This document shows positions 10,886 to 27,826 of a stretch of DNA of 33,986 nucleotides, piece by piece (the stretch's first letter is position 1; each line of letters starts with the position of its first letter). The DNA is from a virus. The stretch is from the IMG/VR virus record IMGVR_UViG_3300032240_001336, positions 1-33,986 of that record. One strand, 5' to 3'. A model generated the notes under the pieces. It saw only the letters and a program-made list of their open reading frames with translations, was not told the origin of the DNA and searched no databases. Made by a program: the position numbers and the translations under genes.

Positions 10886-10948
10886 GTCACGTTCCCTCCT
10901 TCGTGGCTGCCCCACCCTGTTGAGCCTTTGCTCCAGGGTGGGCTTTTT
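10886..10948 (+). ncRNA. Candidate small RNA of about 60 nt, or attenuated leader
   Basis: A transcript from the extended -10 at 10874 would run into the terminator ending near 10948. It would contain a short CACG/CGTG hairpin (10888-10891 with 10902-10905) followed by the 9-bp terminator hairpin. No open frame of useful length lies inside. It could be a small RNA or a leader controlling the fibre gene by attenuation. Inferred only from promoter and terminator spacing. Confidence 0.3.
10909..10948 (+). terminator. Second rho-independent terminator before the fibre gene
   Basis: CCCACCCTG (10911-10919) pairs with CAGGGTGGG (10934-10942), with an extra G-C pair around a bulged C and a 14-base loop, followed by five T (10944-10948). 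Two terminators within 110 bases isolate the fibre gene from capsid transcription. Confidence 0.85.
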
Positions 10949-10954
10949 ATAGGG

Positions 10955-10960
10955 TATAAT
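10955..10960 (+). promoter_or_regulatory. -10 element close to the collagen-fibre start
   Basis: A consensus TATAAT preceded by AGGG, only 9 bases from ATG 10970, so the RNA would have a leader of about three bases or none. It lies directly after the second terminator and gives the fibre gene its own promoter. No -35 resemblance at the usual distance. Confidence 0.65.
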
Positions 10961-10969
10961 GAAGGCATC

Positions 10970-12715
10970 ATGATAATTTTTCCAAATAATAATTTACCAG
11001 ACCTAGCTCAAGATTGGGCTGATACTGTTGAACGCGAAATTAAGCGTATTGATAAAAAATCTGAAAACTCTGGCATTGGCGCAGGTGGCTCAAGTGGCCC
11101 ACAGGGGCCTCAAGGGCCTCAAGGAGAGCCCGGAACACCTGGAGCTACAGGTGCTACTGGTCCAGCTGGAGCAACCGGCCCCACAGGTGCTACAGGGCCT
11201 ACTGGGCCTAGGGGTTTACAGGGGCTTGTTGGTGATGATGGCCCACAAGGCCCAATGGGCTTTACTGGGCCTACTGGACCTACTGGAGCAACAGGCGCTA
11301 CAGGACCGCAAGGTATACAGGGCGTAAAGGGCGACACTGGAGCTACTGGTGCTACTGGAGCTAAAGGTGATACTGGAGCTACTGGTGCCACTGGGCCGCA
11401 AGGTATTCAAGGACTAACTGGAGCTACTGGAGCTGCTGGTACTAATGGAACTAATGGGGCTGCCGGCGCAACTGGTGCTACTGGCCCACAAGGTATTCAG
11501 GGGGATACAGGTGCTACTGGTGCTACTGGAAATGGTATTAGTTCTATAGTAAGAACTTCTGGTACTGGTGCTGCTGGAACAACAGATACTTTTACTATTA
11601 CTTATACAAGTGGGTCTACAACTACTTTTACTGTTTATAATGGCTCTAACGGAACTAACGGAACCAATGGAACTAATGGCACAAATGGTGCTGCTGGTCG
11701 TGGAATTACATCTATTGCTAGAACTTCTGGTACTGGGCTTGCCGGTTCTACCGATACTTATACAATAACTTACTCCGATGCTTCAACTTCCACTTTTACT
11801 GTAGTTAACGGTACTAATGGAACCAATGGAACTAATGGTCAAGGTGTTCCTGCAGCTGGAACTGCTAATCAAGTTTTAACTAAAATTAATGCTACTGACT
11901 ATAATACACAATGGTCATCTGACTTAACTCTTAATAGCATCACTCTTCCAAGCCAAACAGCATCAAGGTTTTTTGCTGCACCAACCGCAGGTGGTGTTCC
12001 ATCATTTAGAGCGATTTCACCATCAGATTTCATGCAGTCTACATCACCATCTTATGGCCAAGCACTAGTTTATGCACCAGTTACTGGTGGTTGGACTTGG
12101 AGTTCTTTTTTCTCAACATTTGGTGGAAGCATTACTGGAAACTTAAATCTTTCTGGAACTACTAGAGAACTTCAAATGAACGCTTTGGCTGGTACTGCTG
12201 GACAAGTGCTTACATCCTCTGGTACTGGCCTTACTCCTACTTGGGCAGATAAAGGATATACTAAAATTGCTGAATCTATATTTAGCGGAACACAGCCATC
12301 ATTTTCTTCAATTCCTCAAACTTATAAAAAGCTTGTTATACAAATATCGTTTACAAATATTGGTGGTCTAGCTGGAACATTTTCTATGAGCTCAAATACT
12401 CGCTCTAATACAGCTTACACAACCTACTCAACAGGCTCTACTGCATCATCAACGGCTGGAGGTACGCCTTCTGGACTTCCATTAACAACTAACGCAACTG
12501 CACCAGCGGTTGGAAATATTTATACAGTTGAAATCCCAAACTATACGTCAGCAAACCCAACCATGTGGCTTTCTGGTGGAGTTGGTGTTACAACAAACGC
12601 CTCTAGATGGGGAGTTGGAACAGTTATATCTAATATAACTCAAATTTCTTTTGAAGCAACAACTAATACATGGACCGGGGCTACCGGAACTGCTACTATT
12701 TATGGAGTTAATTAA
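10970..12715 (+). CDS. Collagen-repeat fibre, probably capsid- or neck-attached
   Basis: I chose ATG 10970 by the promoter position; an earlier in-frame ATG at 10928 lies within the terminator. The 581-residue protein has a short N-terminal helical part ([20 protein letters not shown], 11-30), then Gly-X-Y collagen repeats (about 43-188), two copies of an R-T-S-G-T-G...TFTV motif (near 190 and 245) joined by Asn-Gly-Thr runs, two GTAxQVLT motifs common in phage fibres, and a beta-rich C-terminal domain of about 150 residues. It should be a trimeric fibre. Its place between the major capsid and connector genes, far from the tail fibres, suggests a head or whisker fibre rather than the main receptor binder. 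Its GXY coding repeats are a likely site of length variation. Confidence 0.8.
11096..11536 (+). repeat. Collagen-coding Gly-X-Y tandem repeats
   Basis: Nine-base-type repeats coding Gly-Ala-Thr, Gly-Pro-Gln and Gly-Ile-Gln triplets fill this stretch, with recurring blocks such as GGTGCTACTGGAGC. The repeats are imperfect at DNA level, and the frame stays open throughout. Slippage or recombination between copies could change fibre length. Confidence 0.85.
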
Positions 12716-17449: not shown

Positions 17450-20400
17450 GTGGCTGAAGACTTTAATATATCCCTTGGGTTAGATACAAGTAGTGCCGAC
17501 AAAGAGCTTTCAGCCTTTGTTGCAAAAGCTCGCAAACAGGCTAGAGAGCTACGCAAAGAACTTAGTTCAATCAAATCACCAAAATTTACAATTGATGCTG
17601 ACGTATCTTCTACTCTAAAGCAAGTAGATGTATTAACTAAAAAGATTGAACGCCTAAAGAAGTCTGTTGGTGCTAGCACTAAAGACCCTATGGCTGCCGT
17701 TAAGCCAGCTGATATGACTAAAGCTCAAGAGTCGATGAGGCGTGTTGAGTCTAGAATGGCAACTCTTAAGATTAGCCTTCAACAGCTTAATAAAGTAGGT
17801 AGTAAAAGTCCTGCAGCTACTGCATCTTTAGTTGATGTAAAGTCTGAATTAAAAAAACTTGAAGCTCAGAAAAAAGAAATTAGAGATAATGCTATAAAGC
17901 AGGCTGCTGAAATTAGAAAAGCACAGCAGGAGTTAGCTAAAGAATATTCTGACCCAAAGGTTATTGCAGCGGCAAATTCTTATAGAGAATCTCTTAAGTC
18001 AAATAAGGAAGCTCAGCTTAAGGCTGATTCAGAACGCTCTAGAATAATGAAAGAGATTGAAAGACTTGAGCGTAGTCCTGAGGTAATAGCTGCGATGAAG
18101 GGGCAAGTAGCTGGGCTTAAAGAAATGCGAGCAAGAGCTAGTAAAATGAATGATGAGGCTCGTAAAGAGCTTTCTGCTATTAAGGCAGATTTTGCTGCGG
18201 GTAAAACAGACCGCTCTAAGGTTGATGCAGCTGCTAAAAAAGTTAAAACTCTTCATGAATATATTTTGTGGGCTAGTGCTGAAATTGAAACTCTTTCTGA
18301 TGCTGGACCTAGAACTAAGGGTCTTAAGAGTATTACAAAGAAAATGGGTGTCAAGGCCGCTTATGGTGGTGACTCTGGTGTGCGTGGTGAAACGCCTGTC
18401 ATTAGGTCAACTTCAATACCAAATAGCAGAGACTATCAAAAAATTATTATTGAAGCACAAAAGCTTGCAAAGCAATCAATTGAAATTGGTTTAGCTCGCG
18501 GTTCTAAAACAATTGCTGAAACAAGACCAAATAAGCAAACAACTGGTGGAGTTGTTCCAAATCTTTTAATTGCCGCACTGCATCAACTATTTCCAAATAA
18601 GGTTAGTGCAGAGCAAGCTGGTGCAGCATCTAGGGGTGAAGGTGGAATTGGCGTAGTTCTGCGTGATACTAAAACAGATATAGCTACAATGCTTGAAAAC
18701 TTAGCTCAAGCAGAAAGAGAAATTTCTGGTTCTGATAGTGAGCTTGCTCAAACTATGAGTGAACTTTCTAGCTCAATGGTTGACCTTGGAGACCAAATGG
18801 GTGATGGTAAAACTTCTCAGAGCCGTAGCGGAAAGAGATTATCTGCTGCAGATGAGGCTGCTCAAAGAGAAATTGTTATGGGTGGTGGAACTAGCGCAAT
18901 TGGAAGCATTACTACTGCTAGTGAAGATACTTCTAGAAATCTTAGAGATGCAAATGATTTTACTAAGAGATTACTTGAAGCACTTTCAGCTGGCGATGAC
19001 CAGCGTAAGAAGGGCGGAGTTAGTGATAGGCGTGGTGGGGTTTTTGCTATTGAAACTGAAAATGCTATTGGCCTAGCTGATGATGCTGTGCTTAAGTTTG
19101 CTACAGTTACTGCAGATGAATTTGAAATGGCTGTTGAGCTTGCTACTAAAGCTGGTCAATTTATGCAGGCTGCTACCGGTACTGGTGGAAGTATTAAAGG
19201 AAGAATTGCTGGAGCACAGTTACTTTCTAATAGGACTAATCAGGGAAAGTATAGAAGCCCTTTTGGTAGTGCTGCTACTTCAGAAGATGGCCGTGATAGC
19301 GAATTAGAAGCTACAAAGCAACGGGATAAAAAAAGCGGAGAATCTAAACTTGAGCCAATTGGTTATGGGGCACATGATAAGCTGTTAGCGGATGCTATTG
19401 ACCGTGGATTCCAAGCATTTTTACAAGGATATTTAAAGTTAGAAGAAAAGCCTAAAGTTGGCGTTAAAGATATTGTTGGGCCTCTAGGAACTTTTGCTAG
19501 TGCAAAGCCTGGTTCTGAAGCGGAAAAAATTATTAAAGCAATTCAGGCTGCTTCACAGCAAAGCTCAACAGATAAAAACATGTCGGCAATTGATGCTACG
19601 CTTGGTGCATCAAGTCCATTTGCAATCTTAATTAAAAGCTTAATTGCAAAGGTTACGGCTGGGGTTAATAATCCAGTTCTTGAATCAACTGGAATGTCTG
19701 GAGATATGGCAACATTCCAATATCAGGCATTAGGAAATAATGATACTGCTGGAGCAATGTCTGAAATTGGTTCTATTCAAGATGACTTTATTAGCATGGT
19801 TCATTATCTTGCTATTCTTTATGATAAAGCTGGGCTAAAGGTCAAATCTGGAATTACTAGAGGAGACTATCAGAATGTTCCCGGTTTATCAACTGCTGGC
19901 ACTCAAGCTGACCCGCATATGGATTCATTCCTTAGGCTATTTAATGCTACTCGCGCTCCTGGAAAATTAACAATACCAGCACTTGATAGTAGTGGTCAAA
20001 GACTTAGAGATGAATCTGGTGCCCCATTAGCTGGAGAGATTGAAAATGTTTTCCAAAACTTTGGTGAGCAACTAACTCCATTTACACAGGTCCTTCAAGA
20101 CCTTGCTGTAGTATTTGCTGATATTTACAAGATGCCTATGGCTGGAAACCTTGGTAAGATAGGTAAATTTAATAATCTAGGATTGCCAGACCCTGCAGGC
20201 ACGGAGATGACTCACGGCCAAGCATTTACGCAAAATCGTCAAGGCTTTATTGCTGATATGCTTCGCGCGTCTGTTGAAAACGTTCAAAAACCAGATGAAA
20301 AGAAAGATGCTACAGATAAAGCTGGTGGAGCACTAGTTCCAATTGATGCTATGAATGGTATTCTTGAAAAACTTTCTGTAATAACTGAAGCTTTTTATGG

Positions 20401-23400
20401 TGGCCCGGCTCAAATGTCTGGCACTATGGAGAATGGTGAAGTTGTAGATATCAGTAACCAATTACTAGATGCGATGGTTCAGGCATTTAGTCGCTCTAGA
20501 CAGGGGCAAGATAACCGTACTATTGGTATGGGAATTCAAAGTCAGGGAACGCTACCTGCTGCTCAAAGTGCTATTCGTGCTAAATATGGCGAGACTGTAA
20601 ATGGTCTTACTGCGGGCCTAGCACCTGGAGTCGCTAGAGCTGAGCAAGCTGGTGCTGATACTGCTATAGCTTTCATTGACGGCTATGAAACTAAAATGGA
20701 GATTCAGTCACCATCTAAGCGTATGCGTAAATCTGGTGAAGATACTATTGATGGTCTTCGAGTTGGATTGTTTGGTGGTATTGAAGAGCTTGATAAGGCT
20801 GGTAGGGCGCTTGCTGAATCATTTGATAAAGGATATACAGAACAAGCTAAAGTTGATGCTGTTAAACGTATTCAGGCTATGCAAAAAGCTGGAGATATTA
20901 AAGGTGCAGAACTTGCTACTGCAAGCATGCGTAAAGCTCCGGTTGCCGATGTAAAGCCAGCCACTTCATCTGCTTTACTTTCAAGTCAAGAAGAAATTCA
21001 ACGCAGAAATGCTGCAAACCTTGCACAGCTTGATAGATTAAGAGCTCAGGGTGAAGACCTTCTAGTTGCTCTAGATATTGAGTCTACGGGTGGACGTAAT
21101 GCTGACCATCCACGTGGTGGACTGCGTAACCGTGTATTTGGATACTCTGCGGTTGCTGGTGCTGGTGAGTTTTCACGTGAGCAAGGTGTGCTTCCTGGAG
21201 CCCCTGTTGTAACTCCTAAGATGACCGGCATTTCCCATGGAATGCTTGTGCCACCAAAAGACCAAGGACAGTTATTTACTGGTCACGTTGCTGGGGTACT
21301 TGGACTACAGGGTGCTGATGGAACGAACCTTGAAGTGCTACCTAACCTTATTAAACGTATTGCAAGTCTTGGATATGGTAAACAGAATACTACTGGTAGC
21401 GAAAAAGAGTATGTTAAGCAACTTGAAGATATTGCTGCACTTTTAACAAAACTTTATGAAGATAAGATTCCTCTTGCAATTCATAATGCTGGAGTTAGCG
21501 ACCTAAGTGCTCTTGGTAAAGAGTTTGCACATTATGGAATCACGGCACCCACTGCTGGACAATTTAAGGACGCTAATCTTCTTGTAGAGACACAGAGCAT
21601 GGGCAAGATGCTTGGTGGATACATGAAGGATTTGGGCGGTAAGGTAAGCCTTAGCGTTGGAAAAATCTATGAGCTATTTACCGGTAAGGCTATGGGAACA
21701 GAGCTTATTCCGCCTGTTGGCAATGTGCCTAAACTTGCCGATAGCTCCGCAGTAGCGCATGACCCTACAATCGACACTGCAGCCACACTTGTAAATGCTG
21801 CGACTATGCGTGCCGCTGCTGGAAATGCTGGCATAGTACAGACTGGTTTACTTGGTAAGAAAATTGCACTTCTTGATGCTACTTGGCAAAAAGTTTCTGA
21901 TGCTATTTGGGGTTCACGTAAGTTTGGTTCTCCTGGTCAGGCTGGCAATGTTGGTGGAATGACTACTGGCGACCCTAAAGAGCTCGCTAGCTTTAAGCGT
22001 CAGGCCGCTACTCATGGTGGTCAGTTACAGCCCGTATATGGCCCACAGCAGGCTCCAGCACCAACTCCCGTAGTAGTTCCAGTTACTCCAGCTCAAGACC
22101 CTCAGGCGGCCGCACAAGAGGCAGGTGATGCTGCTGCGAGACAGGCTAGAGCTATAGATGCTCTTGAAAAAGAAAAGGCTCGTATCCGTAAGGAAAAGGC
22201 TCGCATTGAATTCCAGTATCAAGTTGACCTTGTTGAACAGGACATGTCTGTTCTTAAAAATCTTCAAGCAGAACTTAATAAGCCACACAATCAAGGTGAG
22301 GTTCAAAAAAAGCAGCTTGTTGCAGATATGGCTAAGCTTCAGGCTACTATTGATAAGAAACTTAAAGAAAGCTCTGAGCTTGCTGATGGCGTTCGTAGAC
22401 AACTTGATGCTAATGGTGGAGTTAGAACTTTATTCCGCGCCAAGAAGGGCACTATTGGTAAGAGCGATAAGCAAAAAGAACTTGAAAAACAAATTAAAGA
22501 TGCGCAAAAAGAAATTGATGCTCAGCTAGGTACACAACCACAAGCTAAGCCTAAGTCTACTCGTTCACCTGGCAGTGTTATTGCTGCACCACTAGCAGAG
22601 TTGCAGGCAGCTGAACAGCGTATTCAAACTTCATTAACCAATGCTGTATCTAATAGCCTTGGTCCTGCACTTGTAAGCCGTCTAGAGCAAGAACTAGCAT
22701 ATGTGCAGAAGAGCATTAAGTCTGGCCCTGTAGGTAAGCGACGCATGCGCGATGCTCAAGGAAACCTGACATCTGCAGAAGTTGATGTTTTTAAAGCCGA
22801 GGGTGTGCGTGGAGCTAAAGACCGCGTTGCAGGTAAAACACAAATTTCAAATATTAGAAAAGGCTTACTAGCTGAGCTAAAGACTGCAGAAGAAAAAGGC
22901 CGTACCGAAACTGTAGCTGAACTAACCAAGCTTATAGATGAACTTGATAAGTCTCTCGCCTCCGGCCCTGTAGGTAAATACAAGAATGGCCGTGATGCTT
23001 TTGAGCTTCCTGATGGCTATCGCCAAAAAGCTAAAAAAGAAAAAGTAGTAATCTCTAATGTTGGAGATGCTAAGACTCCGGGCGCTTATGATAATATAAC
23101 ACATAAAAACTGGATTGACCAAGGCTTAGAAGCTGAGGCTCAAAAGAGAAAAGCTGCATCTGAGGCGATTAAGGGTCAGATGAAGGGCGAGATGACCACC
23201 ATGGCGCAGGTGGAAAAATACAACCGCAAGATGATGGACTCTTGGATTAGCGGACGCTATGCTTTGTATGATGTTGCAAATACTTATCAACAGTTCCAAC
23301 GTGTGCTCATGCAAGTTGGAAAAAGCATGCAACAAGCAGTTGGAGTTTATGCTTCATTTGAAACATCATTCACCTCTGTTGAAAGAGCTCTACAGCCACT

Positions 23401-26400
23401 TCCGGATGAGTTTGCTGGTATGCGAAATGAAATTGTTAAACTTACAGCAGAACTGCCAGTAGCGTTTGATGAATTATCTAAAATTGCAACGCTTGGTGCT
23501 CAGATGGGAATTAAAGCAGATGGCATCACAAACTTTACAGAGCAAGTTACAAAGTTCTCAGCTATTACTGGCCTTGCCTCAGATACCGTTGCACAAAAGT
23601 TTGGTCGAATTGCTCAGCTAGCTAAAATTCCTTCAGAAGATTTTGATAAGCTTGGTTCTGCCGTGGCTTATGCGGGTGTTAATGCTGTTGCTACTGATGA
23701 AGAAATTCTTACCTTAACAGAAAATATTTCTGCCGCAGCAAATAATTCTGGTTTTGCTGCTGATGAAATTATTGGTTTAGCAACGGCTATGTCATCCCTT
23801 GGTATTGCACCTGAACAAGCACGTGGTGTTATTACTCGTTTGTTTGCTGATATTAATCGTGCAGTTGAGGGTGGGGGAAAGCCGCTTGATGCATATGCTA
23901 AACAACTTGGAATGAGTGCTCAAGGAGCTAAAGAACTATGGAAATCTGACCCTCAAGGATTCTTTAAAGCAATGCTTGACGGCCTTAAGGGTAGCAAGAA
24001 TATGACAGGTGCTCTTGATTCTTTAAACATTAAAGAAACACGTGAAGTTACTACTTTACAAAAGCTTGCTAACAATATGGATGTCTATAATCAGGCGATG
24101 ATGGATGCTCATGATTCTTATGCTAATGGTTCATTCTTATCAGATGCTTATGGTAAGACTCAAGATAATCTTGCAACAAAAATGGAACTTGTTAATAATC
24201 AAATTAAGATGTTCCAAGATGCCTTTGGCTCAGCACTTAGTGGGCCAATAGGAATTGCTGTTGATTTGTTAAATGGATTATTAAAATCACTTAATGCTAT
24301 ATCAAAAAATCCTATAGGTCAGTGGGCTTTGAGAATTGGAACTGCAATGATTGGCTTAGTAGCTATCATGACTACCTATAAAATGATTAGTATGAAGGCT
24401 ACTGCTGCAACCTTAGCTTTTAGAACTGCTCAGGTTACTTTAAGTAAAATTTCTGGACAAGATGCTGGTATAAATGGTTTCAGAAAAATGCTTATGGGTC
24501 AAGAGCAACTTATTATTCGTTCTAATGGGCGTATTGAAGTTGCAAGTAAAAAGCGCATTAAAGAACTAGAAGCTTCTGGCCAAATTAAAAGAGCTGCACC
24601 TGGAAGTGCTGAAGATGTAGCACTTAGGTCTGGTGCTGATGCTAGAAGAGCTGGACTTGATTCAACACAGGGAATGTTAAATCAAAGAAATGGTATGGCT
24701 CAAGCAACTCTTAATAGTAACCAAGATACTATAGCAACCCTTGATAATACTAAGGCTAAGAACGAAAATACTGCAGCAAATAATGCAAATGCTGCGTCAT
24801 CTGAAGCAAATGCTGCTTCATCTATGACTGAATCTGAAGCTAAAACCGCTTCGGTAATTGCTATTGAAGACGAGATTGCAGCAAATGAACAATTAATTAG
24901 TTCAAAGCAAGCAGCTCTTGTATTAATTGAAAATGATATTCTTGCTAAAGAAGCTTCAATTGCTGCGGGTGAAGGTAATGTTGCCGCCACTGAAGCTATG
25001 GTGATGGCTAATAGGCAAGAAGCTGCATCAATTAGTCAAGAAATTGCTGCTATCGAAGCTAAAAACGTTGCTCTTGCGGCATCTAATACAGCTACCGCTG
25101 AAACGGTAGTAGTGATGACCGCAGCTGAATCTATGACAAATAAACTTGGTGGAGCAATGACTAAGTTATCATTAGCTGCTGGTGTTATATCTGTTGCTCT
25201 TATGGCAGTTAGTGCTATTGCAGAATACATGGATAGCCTTAAGGTAAACCTTGAAGAGGCTGGTGGTGGTCTTGCATCATTCCGTGAAGCAATCTATAAA
25301 GATACTGCAGCATATAGAGAGGCTGAAAAAGCACAAAAAGGTAGTGGTGAAGCTATCTCAACTTATAGCAGTAAAATTACAACAGCTAAGACTGGTCTTG
25401 CTGATTGGGCTGTTGGCCTTCAAGCGGCAACTGGTTCAGAGGGTGATTTAACAGATGCTGTTAGCACAACAACTGAAGAGGTGCAAACACAAACACTTGC
25501 CCTAGGAAAAAACTCTGTTCAATGGTTGGCTAATGCTGCAATGCAGGATGATGTTATTCAAGGTATGTTTAAGTCATATTTTGAAAATGGACAAGATTTA
25601 GGTAATTTAGCCACACAGGCTGGTTCAAGTATTGGGCTGATGGTTGAGGCAGCATTAAAGCTTCCTGGAACTGGTGCAGCAGAATATCTTGATAGAACAT
25701 TTAATGCAATGAATCTAGACCCATCTATATCTGGTAGGGTTTATGATGACTTGATGAAGATAGCAAAATCTCTAGATATTACAACCCTTGCCGGTGTGCA
25801 AAACTCAAAGGTAATTAAAGAACTTATGGGAAGTTTTGGTGCCAGTGATAGTCTTGATGACTTTAATACTAATCTAGATGGTGCTGCTGCCAAAGTTTAT
25901 ACATTAACTAATTATGTTTCTGACTTGAGCGGTTTACTTTCTAGCGCATTTACAATTAGATATGGCCTAACAGAATCTGTTGATAAGATGGCAAATGCTT
26001 GGACTGCTGTTAAAGATAGGCTAACTGAGGCCAAGAAGCAAATGCAGGCTATTAATCAAGAAATTTCTGGTATGACTGCAGATAGAAATATTCTTGAATA
26101 TCAGTTGAGCATTGCGCTTAAATATGGCGATACTATTCGTGCGGATAAGATTCGTGCAGACATTGCAGCCAAAACTGGTGAAATTGCTGGAAAGCAAGAT
26201 GACTATAATAAGGCTGCACAAGATGCTAGCACTAGCCTTACTGGAATGAGTCCTGGGGCAATTAACAATCGTGAGACTATGCGTAGCATGGTTCAAACCT
26301 ATAATGAACGCATGGCCGCTTTTGCTAATGCTCAAAAGACTGCTACCAATAAGGCTGATAGAGCTAGAATTCAGGCTGAAGCCGATTCACTTAAAGCAGA

Positions 26401-27826
26401 TTTTATTGCTAAAGCAAGAGCTCTTGGTTTTGCTGAAAATGAACTAGCCCCTTATGTTGCGTCCTTTGGTGACCTTAAAACTGTTGTTGCTAAGCTTCCA
26501 AACACTTTAACTATTAAAGTTAATGCTGACCCGGGTATGCGTGCTTGGCTTGAATGGTGGGCCGCTAATAAAGATGGCAATGGAAATGTTGTTGTTGTTG
26601 ATAAAGACCCAGCTGCCACCCCAACCGCTCCAACCGCCCCTACTACTCCAAATGGAACACCAAATAGTCCAACATTAACAAACAATCCAAATCATGGCGT
26701 ATATACACCTACCAATGAGACTTGGAAGGCAACTAAGACTGCAAAGAACCTGAATACATTGTCTAGGCCAGCTTTAAAGGCTCTTGGTGAATCTTTCCAG
26801 CCTAATTTTATGCAAGGAAAAATGGATGCAGCTAGACTAGCTAGAGATAATCAGGCTAATGCAATTCAAGCAAAATATAGTAAACAAATTAGAAGGTCCG
26901 GAAAGAGCATTGACGAATTGGGTATGGACCCATCTCTTTTGAATGCAGATAATGGATTTACTTTAGCCGATAAAACTGATTTTACGAATATGTATAAAGA
27001 ATATCGAAGATTAGGTAAAACTTTATATAATTTTACAGTAGATGTTAATGGCAATCAAACCCTTGATGTAAATAAATCTGCCGCAGCACAAGATGAATTA
27101 ACTAACCTAACTAAGCTTTTACCAGCTTGGGTAATTAAAGATGTTAACTGGTTAAAAAATTCAGAAAAACTTACAATACAGGCTCAGGGATTAAGAGCAA
27201 CCGCACTACGTCAATATGTGTCAAAAGCTAATGAGCTTAAGGTATCTACAAGAACTGATAAATTTAATACATTAGATAGCTTTAGTCAAACAGTGCTAAG
27301 GCCTCTACTCGATAAATATAGGCAATATGTTGCAAATGATGATAACCTAAAAGCTAGCGTTGAGGGTGCAAGAGGAGAGCTTAGTAAGTTTGGCTATGAT
27401 GCCAAAAAGCTATCATTCTTACTTGGTGATGCTAAATGGAAATCTGCAACTGGCTATGCACTCGGTGGTCTTATTCCAGGTGCAGCTCCATCAAACCCTA
27501 GACTTGATAACATGTTTGCATCAAGTCCTAACGGCACTATTGCTGTGCGCTCTGGTGAGTATATTCAAAGCCAGCAAGCAGTTAGATACTATGGTGTTGA
27601 CTTCATGAATGCTATTAATAAGATGCAAATGCCAAGATTAATGCAGCCTACACAGTCTTCTGGCTCTTCATCTAGTGGCAATATTGTGGTAGAATTATCT
27701 TCGAATGCAGTAATGCAATTAATGGCAATGTCTAACCGCCCAATTAACTTGTACTCAGATGATAGACAAATTGCTAGTAGCGCAAATAGAGGAAACAGAT
27801 TACTTGCAATGAGAGGGTCTAACTAA
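17450..27826 (+). CDS. Giant tail tape measure protein with embedded exonuclease-like domain
   Basis: GTG 17450 follows AGGAG (17441-17445); an in-frame TTG at 17429 lies upstream of that site and is rejected. The product has 3458 residues. In order: helical coiled coils (about 15-290); a mixed Gly-rich region with the SPSKRMRKSGE motif near 1088, common in tape measures; a DEDDh exonuclease-like domain (about 1195-1455); a Pro/Ala linker near 1540; charged coiled coils with a repeated SGPVGK block; the TP901-type tape measure core (about 1950-2310); hydrophobic segments near 2292-2312 and 2571-2592; an Ala-rich coiled coil between them; and a C-terminal GGLIPG...VRSGEYIQSQQAV region. The SPSK motif normally lies late in tape measures, so the order suggests fusion or expansion. 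It fixes tail length, fills the tube and is probably released during DNA entry. Confidence 0.93.
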   Translation: MAEDFNISLGLDTSSADKELSAFVAKARKQARELRKELSSIKSPKFTIDADVSSTLKQVDVLTKKIERLKKSVGASTKDPMAAVKPADMTKAQESMRRVESRMATLKISLQQLNKVGSKSPAATASLVDVKSELKKLEAQKKEIRDNAIKQAAEIRKAQQELAKEYSDPKVIAAANSYRESLKSNKEAQLKADSERSRIMKEIERLERSPEVIAAMKGQVAGLKEMRARASKMNDEARKELSAIKADFAAGKTDRSKVDAAAKKVKTLHEYILWASAEIETLSDAGPRTKGLKSITKKMGVKAAYGGDSGVRGETPVIRSTSIPNSRDYQKIIIEAQKLAKQSIEIGLARGSKTIAETRPNKQTTGGVVPNLLIAALHQLFPNKVSAEQAGAASRGEGGIGVVLRDTKTDIATMLENLAQAEREISGSDSELAQTMSELSSSMVDLGDQMGDGKTSQSRSGKRLSAADEAAQREIVMGGGTSAIGSITTASEDTSRNLRDANDFTKRLLEALSAGDDQRKKGGVSDRRGGVFAIETENAIGLADDAVLKFATVTADEFEMAVELATKAGQFMQAATGTGGSIKGRIAGAQLLSNRTNQGKYRSPFGSAATSEDGRDSELEATKQRDKKSGESKLEPIGYGAHDKLLADAIDRGFQAFLQGYLKLEEKPKVGVKDIVGPLGTFASAKPGSEAEKIIKAIQAASQQSSTDKNMSAIDATLGASSPFAILIKSLIAKVTAGVNNPVLESTGMSGDMATFQYQALGNNDTAGAMSEIGSIQDDFISMVHYLAILYDKAGLKVKSGITRGDYQNVPGLSTAGTQADPHMDSFLRLFNATRAPGKLTIPALDSSGQRLRDESGAPLAGEIENVFQNFGEQLTPFTQVLQDLAVVFADIYKMPMAGNLGKIGKFNNLGLPDPAGTEMTHGQAFTQNRQGFIADMLRASVENVQKPDEKKDATDKAGGALVPIDAMNGILEKLSVITEAFYGGPAQMSGTMENGEVVDISNQLLDAMVQAFSRSRQGQDNRTIGMGIQSQGTLPAAQSAIRAKYGETVNGLTAGLAPGVARAEQAGADTAIAFIDGYETKMEIQSPSKRMRKSGEDTIDGLRVGLFGGIEELDKAGRALAESFDKGYTEQAKVDAVKRIQAMQKAGDIKGAELATASMRKAPVADVKPATSSALLSSQEEIQRRNAANLAQLDRLRAQGEDLLVALDIESTGGRNADHPRGGLRNRVFGYSAVAGAGEFSREQGVLPGAPVVTPKMTGISHGMLVPPKDQGQLFTGHVAGVLGLQGADGTNLEVLPNLIKRIASLGYGKQNTTGSEKEYVKQLEDIAALLTKLYEDKIPLAIHNAGVSDLSALGKEFAHYGITAPTAGQFKDANLLVETQSMGKMLGGYMKDLGGKVSLSVGKIYELFTGKAMGTELIPPVGNVPKLADSSAVAHDPTIDTAATLVNAATMRAAAGNAGIVQTGLLGKKIALLDATWQKVSDAIWGSRKFGSPGQAGNVGGMTTGDPKELASFKRQAATHGGQLQPVYGPQQAPAPTPVVVPVTPAQDPQAAAQEAGDAAARQARAIDALEKEKARIRKEKARIEFQYQVDLVEQDMSVLKNLQAELNKPHNQGEVQKKQLVADMAKLQATIDKKLKESSELADGVRRQLDANGGVRTLFRAKKGTIGKSDKQKELEKQIKDAQKEIDAQLGTQPQAKPKSTRSPGSVIAAPLAELQAAEQRIQTSLTNAVSNSLGPALVSRLEQELAYVQKSIKSGPVGKRRMRDAQGNLTSAEVDVFKAEGVRGAKDRVAGKTQISNIRKGLLAELKTAEEKGRTETVAELTKLIDELDKSLASGPVGKYKNGRDAFELPDGYRQKAKKEKVVISNVGDAKTPGAYDNITHKNWIDQGLEAEAQKRKAASEAIKGQMKGEMTTMAQVEKYNRKMMDSWISGRYALYDVANTYQQFQRVLMQVGKSMQQAVGVYASFETSFTSVERALQPLPDEFAGMRNEIVKLTAELPVAFDELSKIATLGAQMGIKADGITNFTEQVTKFSAITGLASDTVAQKFGRIAQLAKIPSEDFDKLGSAVAYAGVNAVATDEEILTLTENISAAANNSGFAADEIIGLATAMSSLGIAPEQARGVITRLFADINRAVEGGGKPLDAYAKQLGMSAQGAKELWKSDPQGFFKAMLDGLKGSKNMTGALDSLNIKETREVTTLQKLANNMDVYNQAMMDAHDSYANGSFLSDAYGKTQDNLATKMELVNNQIKMFQDAFGSALSGPIGIAVDLLNGLLKSLNAISKNPIGQWALRIGTAMIGLVAIMTTYKMISMKATAATLAFRTAQVTLSKISGQDAGINGFRKMLMGQEQLIIRSNGRIEVASKKRIKELEASGQIKRAAPGSAEDVALRSGADARRAGLDSTQGMLNQRNGMAQATLNSNQDTIATLDNTKAKNENTAANNANAASSEANAASSMTESEAKTASVIAIEDEIAANEQLISSKQAALVLIENDILAKEASIAAGEGNVAATEAMVMANRQEAASISQEIAAIEAKNVALAASNTATAETVVVMTAAESMTNKLGGAMTKLSLAAGVISVALMAVSAIAEYMDSLKVNLEEAGGGLASFREAIYKDTAAYREAEKAQKGSGEAISTYSSKITTAKTGLADWAVGLQAATGSEGDLTDAVSTTTEEVQTQTLALGKNSVQWLANAAMQDDVIQGMFKSYFENGQDLGNLATQAGSSIGLMVEAALKLPGTGAAEYLDRTFNAMNLDPSISGRVYDDLMKIAKSLDITTLAGVQNSKVIKELMGSFGASDSLDDFNTNLDGAAAKVYTLTNYVSDLSGLLSSAFTIRYGLTESVDKMANAWTAVKDRLTEAKKQMQAINQEISGMTADRNILEYQLSIALKYGDTIRADKIRADIAAKTGEIAGKQDDYNKAAQDASTSLTGMSPGAINNRETMRSMVQTYNERMAAFANAQKTATNKADRARIQAEADSLKADFIAKARALGFAENELAPYVASFGDLKTVVAKLPNTLTIKVNADPGMRAWLEWWAANKDGNGNVVVVDKDPAATPTAPTAPTTPNGTPNSPTLTNNPNHGVYTPTNETWKATKTAKNLNTLSRPALKALGESFQPNFMQGKMDAARLARDNQANAIQAKYSKQIRRSGKSIDELGMDPSLLNADNGFTLADKTDFTNMYKEYRRLGKTLYNFTVDVNGNQTLDVNKSAAAQDELTNLTKLLPAWVIKDVNWLKNSEKLTIQAQGLRATALRQYVSKANELKVSTRTDKFNTLDSFSQTVLRPLLDKYRQYVANDDNLKASVEGARGELSKFGYDAKKLSFLLGDAKWKSATGYALGGLIPGAAPSNPRLDNMFASSPNGTIAVRSGEYIQSQQAVRYYGVDFMNAINKMQMPRLMQPTQSSGSSSSGNIVVELSSNAVMQLMAMSNRPINLYSDDRQIASSANRGNRLLAMRGSN
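21032..21815 (+). other. DEDDh (DnaQ-like) 3'-5' exonuclease domain inside the tape measure
   Basis: Three ordered motifs match this nuclease superfamily. ExoI: LLVALDIESTGG with Asp1209 and Glu1211. ExoII: LAIHNAGVSDLSALGKEF with His1345 and Asp1351. ExoIII: VAHDPTIDTAATLV with His1437 and Asp1442 in the H-x4-D spacing typical of the DEDDh type. All four acidic metal ligands and the catalytic His are present. The spacing is longer than in minimal DnaQ domains, with an inserted loop after ExoI. The frame is continuous with the tape measure on both sides and codon use does not change, so this is an integral domain. Activity is inferred. Confidence 0.75.
22721..22978 (+). repeat. Two copies of an SGPVGK block, 240 bases apart
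   Basis: TCTGGCCCTGTAGGTAAG (22721-22738) and TCCGGCCCTGTAGGTAAA (22961-22978) code SGPVGK after helices LAYVQKSIK and IDELDKSLA, and both are followed by Arg/Lys-rich stretches ending in R-D-A. An approximately 80-residue unit seems duplicated in the tape measure. Confidence 0.5.

Follow-up and report, generated by a model that had tools for sequence, protein, structure and literature searches.

A predicted DnaQ-like exonuclease domain within the giant tape measure protein of a clade of uncultured tailed phages

Enzyme domains embedded in phage tape measure proteins (TMPs) are already known, as are TMP-like effectors of contractile systems. The tape measure of mycobacteriophage TM4 carries the peptidoglycan hydrolase motif mt3 (PMC1796659), and enterococcal phage tape measures reportedly carry lytic transglycosylases (PMC10194240). 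In actinobacterial contractile injection systems, Sle1-type effectors are TMP-related proteins with exchangeable functional domains that are loaded in a tail-like tube (PMC13277306). DnaQ-like DEDDh exonucleases (DnaQ epsilon, the PolC exonuclease, DinG, RNase T, TREX1/2, 3'hExo) are either free proteins or fused to a polymerase or helicase, whereas the domain described here is placed inside a structural tail protein. It has in common with mt3 and with the enterococcal transglycosylases that it is embedded in a tape measure, but those enzymes act on the cell wall while this domain is predicted to act on nucleic acid. With the Sle1-type proteins it shares the TMP-like carrier, although those belong to cellular nanomachines as effectors and have their functional domains at the C-terminus, and here a phage tape measure holds an internal nuclease domain. 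In the open-access literature searched, we found no tape measure described as containing a DEDD nuclease. What is apparently new is a conserved, apparently intact nuclease in a TMP.

The DNA analysed (hereafter the window) is an IMG/VR-type virus record of 33,986 bases with the gene order of a siphovirus: terminase, portal, protease, head protein, tail tube protein, tail assembly chaperone, tape measure, minor tail proteins and a CHAP-domain protein. An amidoligase-like gene, with a glutamine amidotransferase-like gene after it, occupies the left end (2-2262), and a collagen-repeat, tail-fibre-like protein is encoded between the capsid gene and the next head-tail genes (10928-12715), an unusual location for a fibre.

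The TMP gene (17450-27826) lies, like every feature described within it, on the plus strand and comprises 3458 codons plus the stop, with a GTG start and a Shine-Dalgarno sequence (AGGAGA) just 5' of it. A first-pass annotation of this DNA had described one unbroken frame of 3458 residues, and indeed no stop interrupts it from the GTG at 17450 to the stop codon ending at 27826. It had also taken the carrier for a tape measure, which the profile searches support: TIGR01760 (tape_meas_TP901) matches residues 1955-2297 (E 1.3e-33; 116.5 bits, cut-off 28.8), and the protein is also matched by six PHROG tape-measure families, with a best E of 7.6e-126. The gene is placed between the tail assembly chaperone and the minor tail proteins, as for TP901-type tape measures. 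By its TIGR01760 and PHROG matches and the siphovirus tail gene order, the protein is securely identified as a TP901-type tape measure. The conserved TP901-type core, supported by the PHROG and TIGR01760 matches, spans residues 1893-2312 (23126-24385), and it is preceded by a giant, clade-specific N-terminal part (residues 1-1892, 17450-23125) that contains the exonuclease domain. Core, C-terminal block and gene position are shared with the TP901-type TMPs of Curtobacterium phage Yappy, Clavibacter phage CMP1 and Arthrobacter phage Amigo. Compared with the TMPs of seven cultured relatives (1174-1635 residues), the window protein has about 1,700 additional residues before the core, the exonuclease domain among them.

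This domain spans residues ~1195-1485 (21032-21904), as delimited by profile comparison with null models, the AF2 fold of a homologue and an island of conservation. Its four acidic residues fall in three motifs in the DEDD order (D-x-E, D, D). Motif I (D1209-I-E1211, in DIESTGG; 21074-21082) aligns with LDTETTG of DnaQ, and motif II (H1345 to D1351, HNAGVSD; 21482-21502, with D1351 at 21500-21502) aligns with HNAAFD. Motif III (HDPTID; 21758-21775) aligns with the H...D of DnaQ through H1437 (21758-21760) and D1442 (21773-21775). The spacing between H1437 and D1442 is H-x4-D, compared with Y-x3-D in DEDDy enzymes, which assigns the domain to the DEDDh and not the DEDDy group. All five residues (D1209, E1211, D1351, H1437, D1442) are found where the first-pass annotation had placed them. 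Of the limits it had given for the domain, 21032-21815, the end falls slightly short, as the conserved block reaches to about residue 1485 (21904). Upstream of the domain, at 20702-20725 (TMP residues 1085-1092), lies a conserved IQSPSKRM...SG...GL motif of a kind often seen in tape measures. No PDB profile match pointing to additional enzymes was obtained for TMP residues 301-1170.

Standard annotation is silent on this domain: no exonuclease match was found in Pfam, PHROG, NCBIfam or PADLOC scans or in PDB sequence profile searches. Pfam PF00929 (RNase_T) had no match over its gathering threshold in the window or its relatives, so the domain is filed under the wider DEDDh superfamily only and not under that Pfam family. 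As the standard searches gave nothing, relatives were gathered from viral contigs. A profile built from seven of the eight aligned family sequences was then compared with a reference set of 14 independently fetched DnaQ-type exonucleases, namely E. coli DnaQ, one PDB chain and twelve phage loci retrieved by tblastn with DnaQ. The local profile-profile score was 34.1, while 100 column shuffles gave a maximum of 20.5 (mean 13.0, SD 2.1). Globally, hhalign scored 39.2 with a probability of 89%, the highest of 60 shuffles reaching 8.5, and motifs I, II and III, with all five catalytic columns, were in register with DnaQ.

Results of a sliding profile test over the whole TMP showed that five segments score at least 29, each of them containing motif I and/or motif II, while no other segment, the one holding just motif III (1401-1738) among them, exceeds 17.7. 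The segment with motif I alone (901-1238) matches the DnaQ profile, and so does 1301-1638, which has motifs II and III alone. The domain differs from the DnaQ-like enzymes in being too divergent for family models and in carrying long insertions between motifs I and II and between motifs II and III. Relatives of the family were searched for more widely as well. Three family members gave no tblastn match against 50,697 phage records, and two scans returned no relative in bacterial and archaeal genomes, so neither a host nor a prophage can be assigned. One distant true member (L032) came from a degenerate-DNA scan for AHDPTID; the other matches of that scan were rejected as contigs of already known relatives or chance matches in unrelated or short frames. 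Neither the window nor seven relative records, all possibly incomplete, contain a second, free-standing RNase_T-type exonuclease.

The structural evidence comes from this L032 sequence, the most diverged member of the family (34-37% identical to the window domain). Its AF2 model, made from a seven-sequence alignment, reached a pLDDT of 76 and a pTM of 0.81, while the window's own domain, modelled from three sequences only, had a pLDDT of 34; for the window, the fold is therefore predicted from this homologue. In the L032 model, strands and helices follow one another as in a DEDD exonuclease. D36 and E38 belong to strand 1, a helix begins at D142, and the last long helix has H221 and D226 about its first turn; the catalytic residues of DnaQ-like DEDDh enzymes occupy the same positions. 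When 999 Foldseek candidates were compared with the model by VIA-align, a DEDD exonuclease-type domain was present in 50 of 50 among the matches listed. The best was PolC (Z 14.7, 3.0 A over 180 residues), and further scores were 13.6 for DinG, 12.7 for a TREX1 homologue, 12.6 for DnaQ and 12.3 for RNase T. Foldseek itself gave a weak best match in the PDB (E 1.9e-3) and a best E of 3e-5 in a viral library, where several entries named DEDDh or exonuclease were among the matches. On the basis of the homologue model, the domain is predicted to have the RNase H-like alpha/beta exonuclease fold. The exonuclease domains of polymerases alpha and theta, both in the list of structure matches, are catalytically dead, so the fold alone is no proof of activity.

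Over eight distinct aligned sequences, including the window (the others being 38-69% identical to it over the domain), the five catalytic residues are invariant in 8/8, down to 38% identity, as is H1345 of motif II. In total only 41 of 338 query positions are invariant, and the chance that five arbitrary positions would all be among them is about (41/338)^5, roughly 3e-5. The surroundings of motif I can vary, L032 having DDEKTA where the window has DIESTG. Along the TMP, the domain stands out as a conservation island after a variable N-terminal stretch. Rough NG86 estimates of dN/dS were lowest for the core (0.12-0.15), followed by the domain (0.20-0.32) and then by residues 1-900 (0.43-0.69); only this ranking is usable, because dS is high (about 0.8 to 2.6). 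A second conserved block is located at 22550-23119 (residues ~1701-1890); three close relatives are 52-84% identical over residues 1701-1800, and the block is largely missing from L006 and L032.

Taken together, the invariance, the profile score and the homologue fold make the five-residue match more than a chance match of motifs. The DnaQ-type domain that the first-pass annotation had proposed within the TMP is thus borne out by profile, predicted fold and conservation, and we regard it as nearly certain that residues ~1195-1485 are a DEDDh-type domain inside a tape measure. The domain has the full set of metal-binding and catalytic residues and is likely to be catalytically active, with a predicted 3'-5' exonuclease activity.

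We also looked at how the domain is distributed among related tape measures. A scan with the TMP core collected 77 related TMP loci. The eight with a core identity of at least 57% all carry the domain (E 5.4e-107 or better); because these loci include two pairs of duplicate contigs, the number of independent cases is below eight. Their TMPs measure 3316-3712 aa and their cores start at residue 1427-1970. None of the other 69 loci (core identity at most 45%) has the domain: these TMPs are no longer than 1846 aa and their cores start at residue 47-388, and eight of these ORFs are truncated 3', which leaves the region ahead of the core intact. The seven cultured phages with similar cores have TMPs like those of the domain-less group (1174-1635 residues). 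The domain therefore lies inside an N-terminal expansion of ~1,700 residues, compared with about 50-390 residues before the core in other TMPs. The joint presence of domain and expansion in eight loci and their absence from 69 indicate that the exonuclease came, or was kept, with the expansion. Both appear restricted, in this sample, to one clade of uncultured tailed phages, and as far as the 77 loci show, the expansion with its exonuclease would have arisen once. The nearest domain-less tape measures (L071, L072 and L073, 1407-1741 aa, with cores 43-45% identical) would be useful to trace this expansion.

What such a domain may do in a tape measure can be approached from published work on other phages. 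Residues 1-37 of the phage 80alpha TMP occupy the neck next to the end of the DNA, while its C-terminal helices contact the tip protein (PMC11661146), and the lambda TMP has been found at the inner membrane during injection (PMC13190303). In TM4, removal of 114 residues including the embedded wall hydrolase, which helps infection, cut the tail by about 20 nm where 17 nm were predicted (PMC1796659); the agreement indicates that an embedded domain counts as extended protein. From these lambda, 80alpha and TM4 results we infer that the exonuclease domain is ejected with the TMP. In the resting virion, it would probably be stretched or confined in the tail tube and inactive. Upon tail firing, the TMP would exit C-terminus first, so that the domain would leave the tail after about 2,000 TMP residues and before its own N-terminal ~1,200 residues and the DNA. 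Once released, it could fold at or past the inner membrane and shorten nucleic acids of the host, or oligonucleotides that signal defence, from their 3' ends. We give a probability of roughly 0.58 to this reading, a DEDDh exonuclease that is ejected with the TMP and acts afterwards. Computation shows the carrier, the homologue's fold, the five residues with their conservation and the restriction to one clade, while activity, ejection, refolding and substrate are deduced. Counting against delivery, space would be tight for a folded domain of ~30 kDa in three or more copies in the tail lumen.

Besides action after ejection, the first-pass annotation had named action in the infected cell ahead of tail assembly. 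The enzyme could indeed serve the producing cell at that stage or while tails are being built, with host or phage nucleic acid as its target or in the form of a cleaved TMP fragment, and no delivery would then be involved. A DEDDh fold would be unhindered in the cytoplasm, where the TMP is synthesised, and the domain is far from the conserved core and could be cleaved off. But an enzyme needed in the producing cell would hardly be expected on a late structural protein when a free gene would suffice, and the single long frame is maintained in every clade member with a complete ORF. An internal start is not apparent either: in the window, the ATGs up to 75 codons upstream of motif I lack a Shine-Dalgarno sequence. 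We therefore hold action confined to the producing cell to be rather unlikely. The domain might otherwise be a former exonuclease that has lost catalysis and is retained to support the structure of the tail or ejection channel or to bind nucleic acid there. Other proteins, polymerase alpha for example, keep inactive DEDD domains for structural purposes, and such a role would suit both the embedding in a structural protein and the altered motif I surround of L032. A dead domain is expected to lose at least some of its catalytic residues, and here all five have remained invariant in 8/8 sequences, while so few other positions have; we consider this possibility improbable.

Two further explanations carry still less weight. 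The enzyme could process the phage's own DNA ends, for instance by trimming a 3' end of the incoming genome on its way out of the tail, in line with the contact of the 80alpha TMP N-terminus with the DNA-end region of the neck (PMC11661146) and with a domain travelling just ahead of the DNA. By the TM4 rule of 0.15 nm per residue, however, residue 1209 would be placed ~180 nm below the neck and packaged DNA would be out of its reach in the resting tail, so that trimming of the packaged end within that tail is unlikely from the geometry. To our knowledge, no other phage needs such trimming, and we judge a role in processing the phage's own ends very improbable. As for a chance arrangement of motifs in ordinary tape measure sequence, it would agree with the failure of curated family models and PDB sequence searches to match, but the profile score far outside the shuffles, the DEDD fold prediction and the invariant catalytic residues refute it in practice and leave it next to no probability.

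Under the delivery reading, the TMP would double as an injected nuclease effector, stretched and inactive in the tube and active in the newly entered host ahead of all phage gene expression, for instance to counter defences based on nucleotide signals or nucleic acids; we put this proposal forward tentatively, at slightly less than even odds. Two questions become testable with this finding: where the N-terminal part of a TMP is located once the protein has been ejected, and whether an enzyme kept in extended form in a tail tube can regain its fold inside the host. Standard annotation overlooks domains of this sort as long as no relatives have been collected. A nuclease in a TMP suggests that the ruler protein can also deliver nucleic-acid enzymes, beyond the known cell-wall enzymes, and that phages may send a nucleic-acid-trimming enzyme into the bacterium ahead of their own DNA.
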